From a virus: a DNA stretch of 25,433 nt. The notes under the pieces are model-generated. The model searched no databases and was not told where the DNA came from. It saw only the letters and a list, made by a program, of their open reading frames with translations. Below are positions 1,926 through 17,643 of this stretch, in pieces; position 1 is the first letter of the stretch, and the number at the start of each line of letters is the position of its first letter. The stretch spans positions 1 through 25,433 of IMG/VR virus record IMGVR_UViG_3300038701_001976; one strand, written 5' to 3'. Position numbers and translations under genes: made by a program.

Positions 1926-2235
1926 TCTTCTCATGCAAGCCGCTGACGCGCTCAAGACCACCGATCCCGTCCTGGCAGCCCAGGTCCACAAAGCGGCCTT
2001 CAATTACCCGCCATCGACCAAGGGCATGGGGCTGACAGCAAGGCAGCGTGATCTGCTGAATTTCATTCGTTCATACAGCAAGATGAACCGGGGGCAGATG
2101 CCGACCTTTGAAGAAATGCGCCGTGCTCTCGGTCTGAAATCTAAATCTGCTATCCATCGGATTATCATCGCGCTTGAAGAGCGTGGGCACATTCACCGCA
2201 TTCCAACCAAGGCTCGCGCCATGGAGTTGGTCTGA
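1915..2235 (+). CDS. LexA N-terminal-type winged HTH protein without protease domain
   Basis: 106 residues from the ATG at 1915 (MSRDLLMQAADAL), overlapping the previous gene by 11 bases. Residues about 40-105 match the LexA DNA-binding domain: LTARQRDLLNFIRSY, then MPTFEEMRRALGLKSKSAIH, then a wing RIIIALEERGHIHRIPTKAR. The protein stops there, lacking the S24 autoprotease half of true LexA, so it cannot self-cleave in response to DNA damage. It may bind SOS-like or phage operators constitutively or compete with host LexA. It is followed by the methylase with a one-base TGATG overlap. Confidence 0.72.
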   Translation: MSRDLLMQAADALKTTDPVLAAQVHKAAFNYPPSTKGMGLTARQRDLLNFIRSYSKMNRGQMPTFEEMRRALGLKSKSAIHRIIIALEERGHIHRIPTKARAMELV

Positions 2236-3440
2236 TGGGTGAGGTCCGTTTTATCACACCGGACCAGCCGGTGCGCTTTCATGAATACGCCAATGTCTTT
2301 CCGATGATGGACGGCAAGCCACATGCCGATCTGGTTGAGGATCTGCGCATAAACGGCATGCAAGAACCCATCGTGATGGTTGGTGACACGATCCTTGATG
2401 GGCGCAACCGCTATATGGCCGCCCGCTCAATTGGCATTGAAATAAGGGCCGTCCAATACGAGGGCAGTGACCCTCTGGCGTTTGTGATCAGCAAAAACCT
2501 TTCGCGCCGCCATCTGACAGAAAGCCAAAGGGCTATGGTCGCGGCCAAGCTGGCAAAACTTCCAAGGGGTGCAAATCAGCATACCGCCCAGGCGGTATCC
2601 TCCCCATCGCAGTCAGATGCGGCCGGTCAGATGCAGGTCAGCGTTGATAGCGTTCAGCGGGCACGGGCCGTTCAAGATCACGGAATAGACGAATTGGCAG
2701 CGAAGGTTGAGGCTGGCGTTATTTCGGTCAAGCCAGCAGCAGAGATTGCGAGACAGCCAAAAGATCGGCAGGCAGAGATTCTGGCGAAAGGTGACGATGC
2801 AATCCTGGCCGAAGCCAAGCGTATTCGCACGGCCCGTATGTCTGACCGGAAACAAAAGCGAGCCGAGCGCGAAAGCCAGTTGGCAGCGAAGATCAGCGCG
2901 ATGCCAGACAGGCCCTTTGGCGTTATATATGCCGACCCGCCTTGGCGGTTTGAAACCTTCAATGACATTACCGGATCCGAGAAATCGGCCGACAACCACT
3001 ACCCCACCCAAACGCTTGATGTGATCAGGGGGCACAAGCCAAATTCTGCACCTGATGCAGTTCTGTTCTTGTGGGCAACGGCACCTATGCTGCCGGAAGC
3101 GCTAGAAGTGATGGCCGCATGGGGCTTCACCTACAAGTCCAGCGGCGTCTGGATCAAGGACAGGATTGGCACCGGATACTGGCTTCGCAATCAGCATGAG
3201 TTGATCCTGATTGGCACCAAAGGCTCGGTGCCCGCGCCGTCAATGGGTGATCAGATAGCATCTGTTTTTGAAGCGCCGGTGCGTGATCACTCTCAAAAAC
3301 CGGACGAAGTTGCCGAGATGATTGAGCGGCTTTTCCCGAACCTTCCAAAACTCGAGATGTATTCCCGCGACCCCCGGCCTGGCTGGGATGCGTGGGGCTA
3401 TGAGTCTAACCAACCCCGAAAGGATCCCTCCCATGACTGA
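2235..3440 (+). CDS. ParB-N / MT-A70 fusion: DNA adenine methyltransferase
   Basis: 401 residues. Residues about 5-115 form a ParB/Srx-like domain with the ILDGRNRY and ISKNLSRRHLT signatures. Residues 125-200 resemble the HTH/linker of ParB-like proteins. Residues about 225-390 are an MT-A70 N6-adenine methyltransferase with the catalytic DPPW (residues 234-237, in VIYADPPWRF), followed by LFLWAT and the motif-rich end EMYSRDPRPGWDAWG. It probably methylates phage DNA at adenine, either to evade restriction or to alter gene control; the ParB-like part may give DNA binding. The start is fixed by TGATG coupling at 2233-2237. It overlaps the next gene by eight bases. The target sequence cannot be read from the protein. 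Confidence 0.88.
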   Translation: MGEVRFITPDQPVRFHEYANVFPMMDGKPHADLVEDLRINGMQEPIVMVGDTILDGRNRYMAARSIGIEIRAVQYEGSDPLAFVISKNLSRRHLTESQRAMVAAKLAKLPRGANQHTAQAVSSPSQSDAAGQMQVSVDSVQRARAVQDHGIDELAAKVEAGVISVKPAAEIARQPKDRQAEILAKGDDAILAEAKRIRTARMSDRKQKRAERESQLAAKISAMPDRPFGVIYADPPWRFETFNDITGSEKSADNHYPTQTLDVIRGHKPNSAPDAVLFLWATAPMLPEALEVMAAWGFTYKSSGVWIKDRIGTGYWLRNQHELILIGTKGSVPAPSMGDQIASVFEAPVRDHSQKPDEVAEMIERLFPNLPKLEMYSRDPRPGWDAWGYESNQPRKDPSHD

Positions 3441-8433: not shown

Positions 8434-8477
8434 CAGTGGCCTAGGGAGCTTGTGGAAAATGCAACCCTAGGCCACTG
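8434..8477. repeat. Long perfect inverted repeat (13-bp arms, 18-base loop)
   Basis: CAGTGGCCTAGGG at 8434-8446 is exactly complementary to CCCTAGGCCACTG at 8465-8477. The 18-base loop is A-rich near its middle. There is no T-run after it, so it is not a normal intrinsic terminator. Thirteen perfect pairs are unlikely by chance in such a short spacer. It could be a protein binding site, an RNA structural element or part of a packaging site. Confidence 0.75.
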
Positions 8478-8534: not shown

Positions 8535-8571
8535 CCCCGTCACCCCTCAATGGGCGGCGGGGTTTTGTTTT
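8535..8571 (+). terminator. Strong intrinsic terminator
   Basis: CCCCGTCACCC (8535-8545), loop CTCAAT, and GGGCGGCGGGG (8552-8562) form an 11-position stem with one mismatch and one G-T pair, followed at once by TTTTGTTTT (8563-8571). This is a textbook rho-independent terminator reading rightward, 20 bases before the next gene. It should end the early transcript, or the transcript of an RNA from the hairpin-rich spacer. Late transcription must start beyond it or be antiterminated. Confidence 0.85.
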
Positions 8572-8591: not shown

Positions 8592-8825
8592 ATGAGCACT
8601 AAGGTCTATTGCCAACGGTGGCCAACAGCATTGATCATCAGTTGTTCCGGCGGCCTGTTAGTGCATTGGGCTGGCGGTGGCGTAATCGACGTTATTTTGG
8701 TGGGTGTTATAGTGGCGACTTTCGCTATAACCGTTCCGCCCGACTCAAAGCAGCCGCGCGCACCGGGACAACCGCCAGCGGCTCCCGCACCGCGCGGGCC
8801 ACCACCGCCGCCTGGCAAACGTTAA
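8592..8825 (+). CDS. Small membrane protein with proline-rich tail
   Basis: 77 residues. A hydrophobic region runs from about 12 to 48 (TALIISCSGGLLVHWAGGG, then VIDVILVGVIVATFAITV), enough for one or two membrane segments. It is followed by a tail of about 28 residues that is mostly proline, alanine and arginine and ends PPPPPGKR. It is the first gene after the terminator. Small phage membrane proteins of this size include holins and superinfection-exclusion factors, but nothing here identifies either. The ATG at 8592 has a GAAGG upstream at a rather long spacing, so the start is uncertain. Confidence 0.55.
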   Translation: MSTKVYCQRWPTALIISCSGGLLVHWAGGGVIDVILVGVIVATFAITVPPDSKQPRAPGQPPAAPAPRGPPPPPGKR

Positions 8826-8826
8826 C

Positions 8827-8961
8827 GTGCCTAAATCAGACTGGCATCGCCTCTACTCAACAAAGAGATGGCGCAAGAGGCGCGCACATCAACTCGCAAC
8901 CAACCCTCTATGCGAGATGTGCTTAGCCCAAGGCGTCACTACACCCTCTCAGTTTCTTTAG
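8827..8961 (+). pseudogene. Truncated HNH endonuclease remnant
   Basis: From a GTG at 8827, 44 codons encode SDWHRLYSTKRWRKRRAHQL and then NPLCEMCLAQGVTTPSQFL before TAG at 8959-8961. This is the N-terminal part of the phage HNH nucleases that sit beside terminase: W-x-x-LY-S-x-x-W-R, then PLCExCLAxGxxTP. In intact homologues the next residues are usually V-D-H-I-K-P-H. Here the frame after the stop reads H-I-K and then enters unrelated sequence. The catalytic HNH half is therefore missing. In HK97-like phages the nuclease helps terminase cut cos, so its loss matters. The fragment has clear family features and can only be a remnant or a new mini-protein. Confidence 0.75.
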
Positions 8962-8979
8962 CACATTAAAAGGCCCCCC

Positions 8980-9186
8980 ATGCCCGACACCAAACTGGCC
9001 GTGAAATACCGTGCAATCGGCGACCTTGCGCCTTATGCGAGGAACTCGCGGACCCACTCGGAAAAGCAGGTCGAGCAGATCGCGGCGAGCATCAAGGAGT
9101 TCGGGTTCACCCAGCAGGCCACGCTTGAAGGCGATGGCCGCACCTTTGACGAGATCACCGCTGTACGGGCACAGGAGGCCGCGTAA
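8980..9186 (+). pseudogene. ParB-type DNA methylase with its catalytic core deleted
   Basis: An intact 68-codon ORF with AAAGG just upstream. Its first 45 residues (YRAIGDLAPYARNSRTHSEK, then QVEQIAASIKEFGFT) are the start of the ParB-N domain of phage ParB/N6-N4 DNA methylases. The next residues (QQATLEGDGRTFDEI) match the extreme C-terminus of the same family, normally written RWQ-x-FTG-x-x-A-x-L-x-G-x-TF. The catalytic DPPY/NPPY core, several hundred residues in relatives, is absent. The frame is kept across the join, consistent with an in-frame internal deletion at an FT-coding (TTCACC-like) microhomology. It ends in TAATG overlap with terS. It should have no methylase activity. Confidence 0.72.
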
Positions 9187-9608
9187 TGGCCGAGAAGAAC
9201 AAGGGCGGTCGTCCGAACAAGCTGAAGGCAGACGACGCCACGGTGAAGATTGTCAAGGGCCTCGGCAATATCCAAGCCACGAGCAAGGAATGCGCTGCCG
9301 TTCTCGGCGTGACCGAGCCGACTTGGATCAAGTTCAAGAAGGACAACCCGGAAATTGAAGCCGCTCTAATCGAGGGGCAGGGCGAAGGGCTGGCTTCTCT
9401 CAGGCGTCGTCAGTTTAAGGCGGCCAATGATGGTAACGCCACGATGCTCGTATGGCTTGGCAAGCAGTATCTCGGACAGTCGGACAAGCAGGAAATCGCA
9501 TCAACGGTTCAAGTTGAGGTGACAGATGCACGGAACGCCCTTGAACATCTCATCACTCGCAACGCTTCCGCCCGATCAAATCAAGGCGGCGCTGGCGCAA
9601 CTCACTGA
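9186..9608 (+). CDS. terS: Terminase small subunit
   Basis: 140 residues with a strong GGAGG seven bases before the ATG. A basic start (KGGRPNKLKADD) leads into an HTH (SKECAAVLGVTEPTWIKFKK) and an oligomerisation helix (LIEGQGEGLASLRRRQFKAA). The end of the homology, LGKQYLGQSDKQE, is typical of phage TerS and Nu1-like proteins. It recognises the packaging site and delivers DNA to TerL. Its 3' end overlaps the start of terL by 83 bases in a different frame, an unusually long but seemingly genuine overlap. Confidence 0.85.
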   Translation: MAEKNKGGRPNKLKADDATVKIVKGLGNIQATSKECAAVLGVTEPTWIKFKKDNPEIEAALIEGQGEGLASLRRRQFKAANDGNATMLVWLGKQYLGQSDKQEIASTVQVEVTDARNALEHLITRNASARSNQGGAGATH

Positions 9609-10869
9609 TGCCCAATGCGAGGCGCTGCTGCATGACTGGCGGTTCCTCGCCCGTGATCAGCAACTCCCGCCTGAAGGTGATTGGCTGAATTGGCTGATCC
9701 TCGCCGGACGCGGCTTTGGCAAGACCAGAACCGGGGCTGAATGGGTACGCGAACAGGTAAAGCTTGGCGAAAGCCGGATAGCGTTGATCGCTCCGACAGC
9801 ATCGGATGCACGAGACATCATGATCGAAGGCGAGAGCGGGTTGCTCTCGGTCTGCTGGGCAGGGGACAAGACGTATTCAGGTGAACCGATCGGACGCCCA
9901 TCCTATGAACCATCCAAGCGCCGCCTGACATGGGAGAACGGGGCAATCGCCACTGCATTCTCTGCCGAGGAACCGGAACGCCTTCGCGGTCCACAGCATG
10001 GAAAAGCATGGGCCGATGAATTGGCCGCGTGGAAGTATCTCCGCGAGACGTGGGACATGCTGCAATTCGGGCTTCGTCTCGGCGACAATCCGCAGGCGTG
10101 CATCACGACGACGCCTAAGCCGCTCAAACTGATCCGCGAACTGGCCTCAGACGCCCGCACAGTGGTTACGGGGGGGTCTACGTTCGACAATGCCGGGAAT
10201 CTGGCTCCGACGTTCCTAGAGGCTGTTCAAGCAAAATACGAAGGGACACGGCTCGGCCGGCAGGAATTGTATGCCGAGGTCTTGGACGAGGCCGAGGGCG
10301 CGCTGTGGACCCGTCAAATGGTCGAGGATGCCTATTTCGATGGCGCTCTCCCGGAGATGCTACGGATCGTTGTGGCGGTCGATCCAGCCATTACGGCGAA
10401 AGAGGAATCGGACGAGACGGGCATCATCGCTGCAGGTCTTGGCAGGGACGGCAAAGGCTACGTTCTCGACGACAAGAGCGGGCGATATTCGCCGAGCGGA
10501 TGGGCGGAGGAAGCCATCGAACTCTATCGCGAGTTGAAGGCCGACAGGATCGTCGCTGAGGGCAACCAGGGCGGCGAGATGGTTCGGCATACCATCCAGA
10601 CGGAATGGGCGTCAGCGCCCGTCACAATCGTTCACGCAAGCCGGGGAAAGGCTGCAAGGGCGGAGCCGGTCTCGGCGCTCTATGAGCAAAAGAAAATCCG
10701 GCACGTCAAACCGCTGCCGGAACTGGAAGACCAGTTGGTCACATGGGAGCCGCTCGGCAATCTCCCGTCTCCCGACCGGCTGGATGCGCTCGTGTGGGCG
10801 CTCACCGAATTGATGGTGGACCAGCCCGTTACCCCGGCCATGTTCCTCAAGAAAAGGCACCGCGCATGA
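9526..10869 (+). CDS. terL: Terminase large subunit (ATPase/nuclease)
   Basis: 447 residues. The ATPase has Walker A LILAGRGFGKT (57-67), Walker B AWADELAAW with Asp164-Glu165, and coupling motif TTTPKPL (194-200). The RNase H-like nuclease has VAVDPA (Asp286), VAEGNQGG (Glu345) and DRLDALVWA (Asp420), the three expected acidic residues. It pumps DNA into the procapsid and cuts it. The family resembles the terminases of alphaproteobacterial phages and gene transfer agents. The ATG at 9526 lies inside terS; it is the earliest in-frame start with a plausible N-terminus. It ends in ATGA overlap with the portal gene. Confidence 0.95.
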   Translation: MHGTPLNISSLATLPPDQIKAALAQLTDAQCEALLHDWRFLARDQQLPPEGDWLNWLILAGRGFGKTRTGAEWVREQVKLGESRIALIAPTASDARDIMIEGESGLLSVCWAGDKTYSGEPIGRPSYEPSKRRLTWENGAIATAFSAEEPERLRGPQHGKAWADELAAWKYLRETWDMLQFGLRLGDNPQACITTTPKPLKLIRELASDARTVVTGGSTFDNAGNLAPTFLEAVQAKYEGTRLGRQELYAEVLDEAEGALWTRQMVEDAYFDGALPEMLRIVVAVDPAITAKEESDETGIIAAGLGRDGKGYVLDDKSGRYSPSGWAEEAIELYRELKADRIVAEGNQGGEMVRHTIQTEWASAPVTIVHASRGKAARAEPVSALYEQKKIRHVKPLPELEDQLVTWEPLGNLPSPDRLDALVWALTELMVDQPVTPAMFLKKRHRA

Positions 10870-17349: not shown

Positions 17350-17643
17350 TCATTCCTCGATCACGACGGTCTTACCGCCGCGCGTGAGTAAGGCAAGCAA
17401 CCCCGTGATAAGTGCACCAATTAACCAAACAATGCCAATGAAGGAAAACCCGATAGCGCCGCCAATTGCGCGGCCCGCGTCCTCGAATTCATCTTGTGCC
17501 GGGTCGAGATTGGAAACGCCGGCAATGGCAGCAATCAACCATGCAAGCATAATAGCGTTGTAACCTAGGAAGATGATTAGAAACACCCAACCGAAGAACC
17601 CTCGCTTGCGGATTTCTTTGCGAACGACCCTCGCCACGCGCAC
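17350..17643 (-). CDS. Leftward two-helix membrane protein (moron)
   Basis: 97 residues from a GTG at 17643; a second GTG at 17637 has better spacing to AAAAGGGG and would give 95. A basic start (VVRKEIRKRGFFGW) leads into a hydrophobic helix (VFLIIFLGYNAIMLAWLIAA). A short acidic loop follows (LDPAQDEFEDAGRA), then a second helix (IGFSFIGIVWLIGALITGLL) and a basic tail. This KEIRKRGFFG protein type is common in prophages and plasmids but has no assigned role. It lies opposite to every structural gene, so it is probably expressed on its own during lysogeny. Superinfection exclusion is a reasonable but unproved guess. Confidence 0.8.
   Translation of the reverse strand: MRVARVVRKEIRKRGFFGWVFLIIFLGYNAIMLAWLIAAIAGVSNLDPAQDEFEDAGRAIGGAIGFSFIGIVWLIGALITGLLALLTRGGKTVVIEE

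Follow-up and report, generated by a model that had tools for sequence, protein, structure and literature searches.

The stretch of DNA analyzed here (the window), a 25-kb virus fragment of 25,433 bases from IMG/VR, very probably carries a degenerate ParB-TLS locus, in which remnants of an HNH nuclease gene and of a ParB-domain methylase gene precede the terminase genes of a phage that need not be defective. ParB-TLS loci, in which genes for methylases and ParB proteins, including fused ParB-methylases, precede the gene for the terminase large subunit (TerL), have been described for Paracoccus phages, where 36 ParB-methylases lie ahead of terminase genes (PMC6536676). As in those loci, a gene of the ParB-domain methylase family lies in the same order directly before the genes for the terminase small subunit (TerS) and TerL, and the tail of the stub matches the intact C-terminus. 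The position is established by the overlap with TerS, the match to phrog_620, and synteny with the related locus L126, and the ParB domain is only partial. Unlike a ParB-TLS methylase, the stub has lost about 350 residues, including the catalytic domain, and there is no intact DNA-modification gene at positions 8980-9186. Therefore, we classed the locus as a degenerate ParB-TLS remnant and not as a working one. Other phages already provide examples of both such loci and such decay. The features on which the analysis rests are collected in Table 1.

Table 1. Features of the degenerate packaging locus and of the second methylase gene in the window
Feature	Position	Strand	Evidence
Second, intact methylase (ParB-like N-terminus and MT-A70 domain with DPPW), early region	2235..3440	+	PF05063 E 7e-22; phrog_4715 ParB-like E 2.5e-16
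HNH endonuclease stub	8827..8961	+	phrog_2323 match; gapless alignment to AP-16-3 HNH; shuffle test
H-I-K codons 3' of the HNH stop	8962..8970	+	AP-16-3 alignment; profile score gain
Shine-Dalgarno-like AAAAGG, 6 nt before the methylase-stub ATG	8968..8973	+	Sequence
ParB-methylase stub, N-terminal 44 residues (MPDTK...EFGFT)	8980..9111	+	phrog_620 E 1.1e-13; 59.9 bits to methylase profile
Deletion junction GFT/QQATLE, about 350 residues missing	9111..9112	+	Flank statistics of intact proteins
ParB-methylase stub, C-terminal 24 residues QQATLEGDGRTFDEITAVRAQEAA and TAA	9112..9186	+	Matches C-terminal end of intact methylases
TerS Shine-Dalgarno AGGAGG inside the retained methylase tail	9173..9178	+	Sequence
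Terminase small subunit TerS	9186..9608	+	phrog_309 E 8e-11; 66% identical to L123
Terminase large subunit TerL, Terminase_6N/6C type, intact	9526..10869	+	PF03237 E 8e-25; PF17289 E 6e-16

The first remnant begins with GTG at position 8827 and ends with TAG at 8959-8961, and its 44-residue translation is VPKSDWHRLYSTKRWRKRRAHQLATNPLCEMCLAQGVTTPSQFL. It matches three PHROGs families, namely phrog_2323 (E 4.3e-9), phrog_589, and phrog_144, with E values ranging from 4e-9 to 9e-7. Against a profile built without it, the stub scores 45.6 bits, compared to 8.7 bits for the best of 2000 shuffles. The intact HNH protein of Sinorhizobium phage AP-16-3 (97 residues; L281:3001-3294) aligns to the stub without gaps and places the Asp of I-V-D-H-I-K opposite the stop, such that TAG occupies the Asp codon position of V-D-H-I. 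The H-I-K codons that follow are in register with intact HNH proteins, and including them raises the profile score to 49.8 bits. These results bear out the initial annotation, which had described a 44-residue HNH start cut at this Asp with H-I-K still readable beyond it. Past H-I-K, HNH sequence is missing (about 45 residues), and with it the latter half of the active site. The stub does not retain the D-H ... H/N catalytic residues of the HNH fold, and the Asp of V-D-H-I is itself replaced by the stop. The distance from the HNH stop to the ATG of the methylase stub is 18 bases (8962-8979) and not the 16 given previously. Immediately upstream of the HNH stub, a 77-residue frame (8592-8825) that contains a hydrophobic segment and is rich in proline near its end had no family match.

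The second remnant runs from ATG at 8980 to TAA at 9184-9186 and encodes 68 residues (MPDTKLAVKYRAIGDLAPYARNSRTHSEKQVEQIAASIKEFGFT, followed by QQATLEGDGRTFDEITAVRAQEAA), in which the two halves are fused in frame. Intact ParB-methylases of this family are normally about 420-440 residues long. Tested against a profile made from intact ParB-methylases, the first 44 residues reach 59.9 bits, where no shuffle exceeded 5.1, and the last 25 residues reach 16.2 bits, where shuffles peaked at 4.6. A single 74-residue frame matches profile positions 17 to 433 of 435. The tail aligns with the very end of intact enzymes, for example DFTGQAATLECDGRTFAEIEAQRKQAAA in L126, and it likewise matches the C-terminal end of the methylases in L006, L004, L112, and L061 and in most loci found with the tail pattern. 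That pattern was found in at least 120 stretches, which mostly belong to full-length methylases, along with several fragments at contig ends and some decayed genes. Spurious homology of the C-terminus, which the initial annotation had named as a way for its reading to fail, is ruled out by the tail profile score and by the position of the matches at the ends of intact enzymes. Its proposal of an in-frame join between the two ends of a ParB-methylase is thus upheld by the profile scores and the L126 alignment, with 44 and 24 residues as the two parts. The ribosome-binding site that it mentioned corresponds to the Shine-Dalgarno-like AAAAGG.

The junction itself was compared with the corresponding flanks of intact proteins. 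In 151 of 168 of these, E-F-G-F-T is followed by N-P, and in 138 of 140 the tail is preceded by T-G (T-G-x-x-A), with T-G-Q-Q-A in 5. The window reads GFT/QQA, and the Gly of F-T-G is lost, which indicates that the two F-T sites were not simply the endpoints of the deletion. The simple case of slippage between two F-T-encoding sites is ruled out because it would have retained this Gly. Microhomology at the junction probably did not exceed one or two bases, as judged from the protein sequences.

Intact methylase genes occupy the same place in relatives. Locus L126 carries a 420-residue methylase with ParB_N and N6_N4_Mtase (residues 192-388) domains and the C-terminal end FTGQAATLECDGRTFAEIEAQRKQAAA; the gene ends a few bases before TerS, and TerL there is 68% identical to that of the window. 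An intact methylase also precedes a related TerS in L006 and in Psychrobacter phage pOW20-A. For the nearest TerL relatives (L121, L122, and L123), the upstream sequence available is limited (about 1.1 kb for L121, 6 kb for L122 and L123), and neither gene occurs in it. In the phage collection, the only DNA-level match was 62 bases long and lies inside TerS of phage pOW20-A, and a search for TerS in 289 genomes of one class returned two weak matches only. None of the relatives found is nearly identical to the window and carries intact genes, so that neither the precise ends of the deletions nor their order can be read off directly. The check proposed in the initial annotation, a look for intact versions of both genes at this locus in relatives, succeeded for the methylase (L126, L006, and pOW20-A) and not for the HNH gene, which was found intact before the terminase type of the window in no locus. 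For this reason, the HNH half of the ancestral gene order is drawn from the stub itself.

Several other loci show comparable decay. L352 and L399, both on the minus strand with coordinates given on the reverse complement, contain an HNH-family gene, a methylase that keeps only positions 21-142 and 321-428 out of frame (7171-7871 in L352), TerS, and TerL. This arrangement resembles that of the window, whereas the HNH gene is different, the deletion ends differ, and the methylase is out of frame, which marks an independent event. The L367 methylase keeps positions 15-89 and 154-430 and lacks 90-153, and those of L349 and L381 are interrupted about halfway by a stop. Since these genes decayed independently, loss of the methylase core is recurrent.

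From these comparisons, we infer an ancestor that would have carried HNH, ParB-methylase, TerS, and TerL genes in one operon. The HNH gene would have gained a stop at the active-site Asp, and its 3' half would have been lost in a deletion that extended almost to the methylase start. The methylase would have lost about 350 internal residues in frame, with little microhomology, if any, at the deletion ends. The methylase tail would have been kept together with the TerS Shine-Dalgarno sequence and start overlap, such that terminase expression could survive. Most likely, the stubs have no protein function. The catalytic N6_N4_Mtase domain is absent and only the two ends of the profile are left; methylation from this gene is not expected because that domain is lost.

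The proposed role of the tail derives from the arrangement of the TerS start. AGGAGG falls within the Q-E-A codons of the tail, 7 bases before the TerS ATG, and the stop of the methylase stub overlaps this ATG (TAATG). By a rough count, the next frame starts inside the methylase gene in 73 of the 105 loci with a complete methylase end. A deletion extending through the tail would take the start signals of TerS with it, which may be why this part was retained. Short ORFs before terminase genes should accordingly be read with caution, as they may be stubs that persist as carriers of such signals. More broadly, accessory genes of the packaging locus, such as HNH and ParB-methylase genes, can be lost while the terminase stays constrained.

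The stub is homologous to phage HNH proteins of the HK97 GP74 type that lie upstream of the terminase (KpF5, RHph_TM3, and RHph_Y3_1) or at the genome end (AP-16-3 and 16-3). In HK97, cos cleavage is reportedly promoted by GP74 (PMC9410871), and the view of HNH as a terminase partner, as put forward in the initial annotation, holds for that phage. It does not carry over to the window, where the HNH frame is truncated before the catalytic His and the adjacent terminase is not of the HK97 type (TerL_ATPase/TerL_nuclease): TerL is of the Terminase_6N/6C type and TerS belongs to phrog_309. Among the loci gathered, an HNH gene occurs within 3.5 kb upstream of TerL in 23 of 38 HK97-type loci and in 0 of 115 Terminase_6-type loci. 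The sample is not random, since it was assembled through similarity to TerL, TerS, methylase, or HNH sequences, and it includes several near-duplicates. Four HK97-type loci have no methylase, three of them fetched for HNH, and leaving out those four gives 19 of 34 for the HK97 type. In typed loci that combine HNH, methylase, and terminase genes, TerS is Terminase_4 and TerL is TerL_ATPase/TerL_nuclease, whereas methylases precede both terminase types. HNH thus goes with one terminase type. Judged by this gene content, loss of the HNH gene does not argue for a packaging defect, because its family accompanies HK97-type terminases and none of the 115 of the Terminase_6 type.

This distribution also allows a different cause for the same remnants. 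In this less likely reading, the methylase junction would be the crossover scar of a terminase swap, through an unequal exchange inside the methylase gene between an HK97-type HNH-methylase locus on the left and a Terminase_6-type methylase-TerS-TerL locus on the right. The outcome would be an obsolete HNH gene and a shortened hybrid methylase; both would still be remnants, and only the cause would differ. HNH genes beside ParB-methylases occur with Terminase_4/TerL_ATPase in the sampled loci that were typed, while the window has Terminase_6. Moreover, nuclease genes upstream of terminase genes have been described as a hot spot that marks exchange boundaries (PMC10448857). It is rather doubtful that an HK97-type module (cos, HNH-assisted) was replaced by a Terminase_6-type module, with the methylase 3' end serving as the new TerS translation-start region; if so, the HNH gene would have been left partnerless. 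Against a swap, neither half is long enough to be placed, as the N-terminal half and the tail match methylases of both terminase types, and a methylase beside the terminase type of the window needs no swap, as L126 shows.

Retention of the 68-residue frame for a function of its own, either as a translated leader cistron coupled to TerS or as a small DNA-binding protein, is unlikely. The in-frame fusion, the ribosome-binding site of its own, the TAATG overlap with TerS, and the AGGAGG inside the tail would fit such a role, and the frame is free of stops and frameshifts, as selection for a short product would also leave it. However, the TerS start signals require the tail only and not the ParB half, and the same fusion was found in no relative. 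The junction pattern GFTQQAT, degenerate over all codons, occurred in 26 stretches of IMG/VR viral contigs, none of them in a ParB or methylase frame, and in 385 genomes from a single bacterial class it was not found even with up to two mismatches; relatives close to the window's own record may be missing from both sets. These scans gave no sign of a conserved mini-gene. The alternative that relatives carry the same short ORFs as conserved genes thus found no support, and the initial reading of gene remnants is reinforced by the scans and by the intact methylases at the same place in relatives.

The same annotation had suggested that the methylase frame could yield a ParB-only mini-protein. 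In 152 of the 156 intact proteins where it was located, the G-H-G-R motif lies 13 residues beyond the point at which the stub ends (EFGFT), and the stub therefore holds about half of the ParB domain and not a complete N-terminal domain with this motif. Because the stub stops before G-H-G-R, a functional ParB-only product appears unlikely. ParB-only proteins do occur in L008 (3659-4228) and L009 (4253-4963), where they have a C-terminal zinc-ribbon-like CPHCG motif and no methylase, and their genes overlap the TerS start.

A defective or domesticated prophage whose stubs form part of a general decay is very unlikely. Two inactivated genes do lie side by side, yet no further broken gene was found. 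The left part of the window encodes a repressor, a CII-like gene, a ParB/MT-A70 methylase, a RuvC-like resolvase, a DnaB-like helicase, and SSB, and the right part encodes TerS, TerL, portal, capsid, connector, tape-measure, and tail genes. The late genes were assigned to head, connector, and tail families, are tightly packed, and together with the terminase genes are open up to the end of this 25-kb fragment. TerL is 73-78% identical to its nearest relatives (L121-L123) and shows a codon-position pattern of purifying selection; differences in TerL and TerS gather at third codon positions, a pattern that covers the whole divergence and not only the time since the loss. The phage need not be defective because its Terminase_6-type terminase does not go with this HNH and because another ParB-domain methylase is kept, for which seven relatives, themselves fragments, gave no matching counterpart. 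Consequently, the defective or domesticated state or alternative packaging route that had been proposed from the loss of both genes does not follow.

Finally, a collapsed or chimeric contig is very unlikely as the source of the junction: the IMG/VR record is a viral fragment from a single assembly, yet the region has no long repeat able to cause collapse, the junction preserves the frame, and comparable decayed methylases occur in other contigs.

Additional observations were made in the flanking regions. At 8434-8477, in the interval leading up to the packaging genes, two 13-bp arms (CAGTGGCCTAGGG / CCCTAGGCCACTG) form an inverted repeat without mismatches around a spacer of 18 bases, which may serve in packaging or regulation. 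The sequence CCCCGTC...GGCGGGG followed by TTTTGTTTT (8535-8570), which separates the early region from the late operon, is terminator-like when read by eye and was not listed by the computed scan. A 97-residue membrane-like frame at 17350-17643, on the minus strand but inside the late operon, is a possible moron gene.
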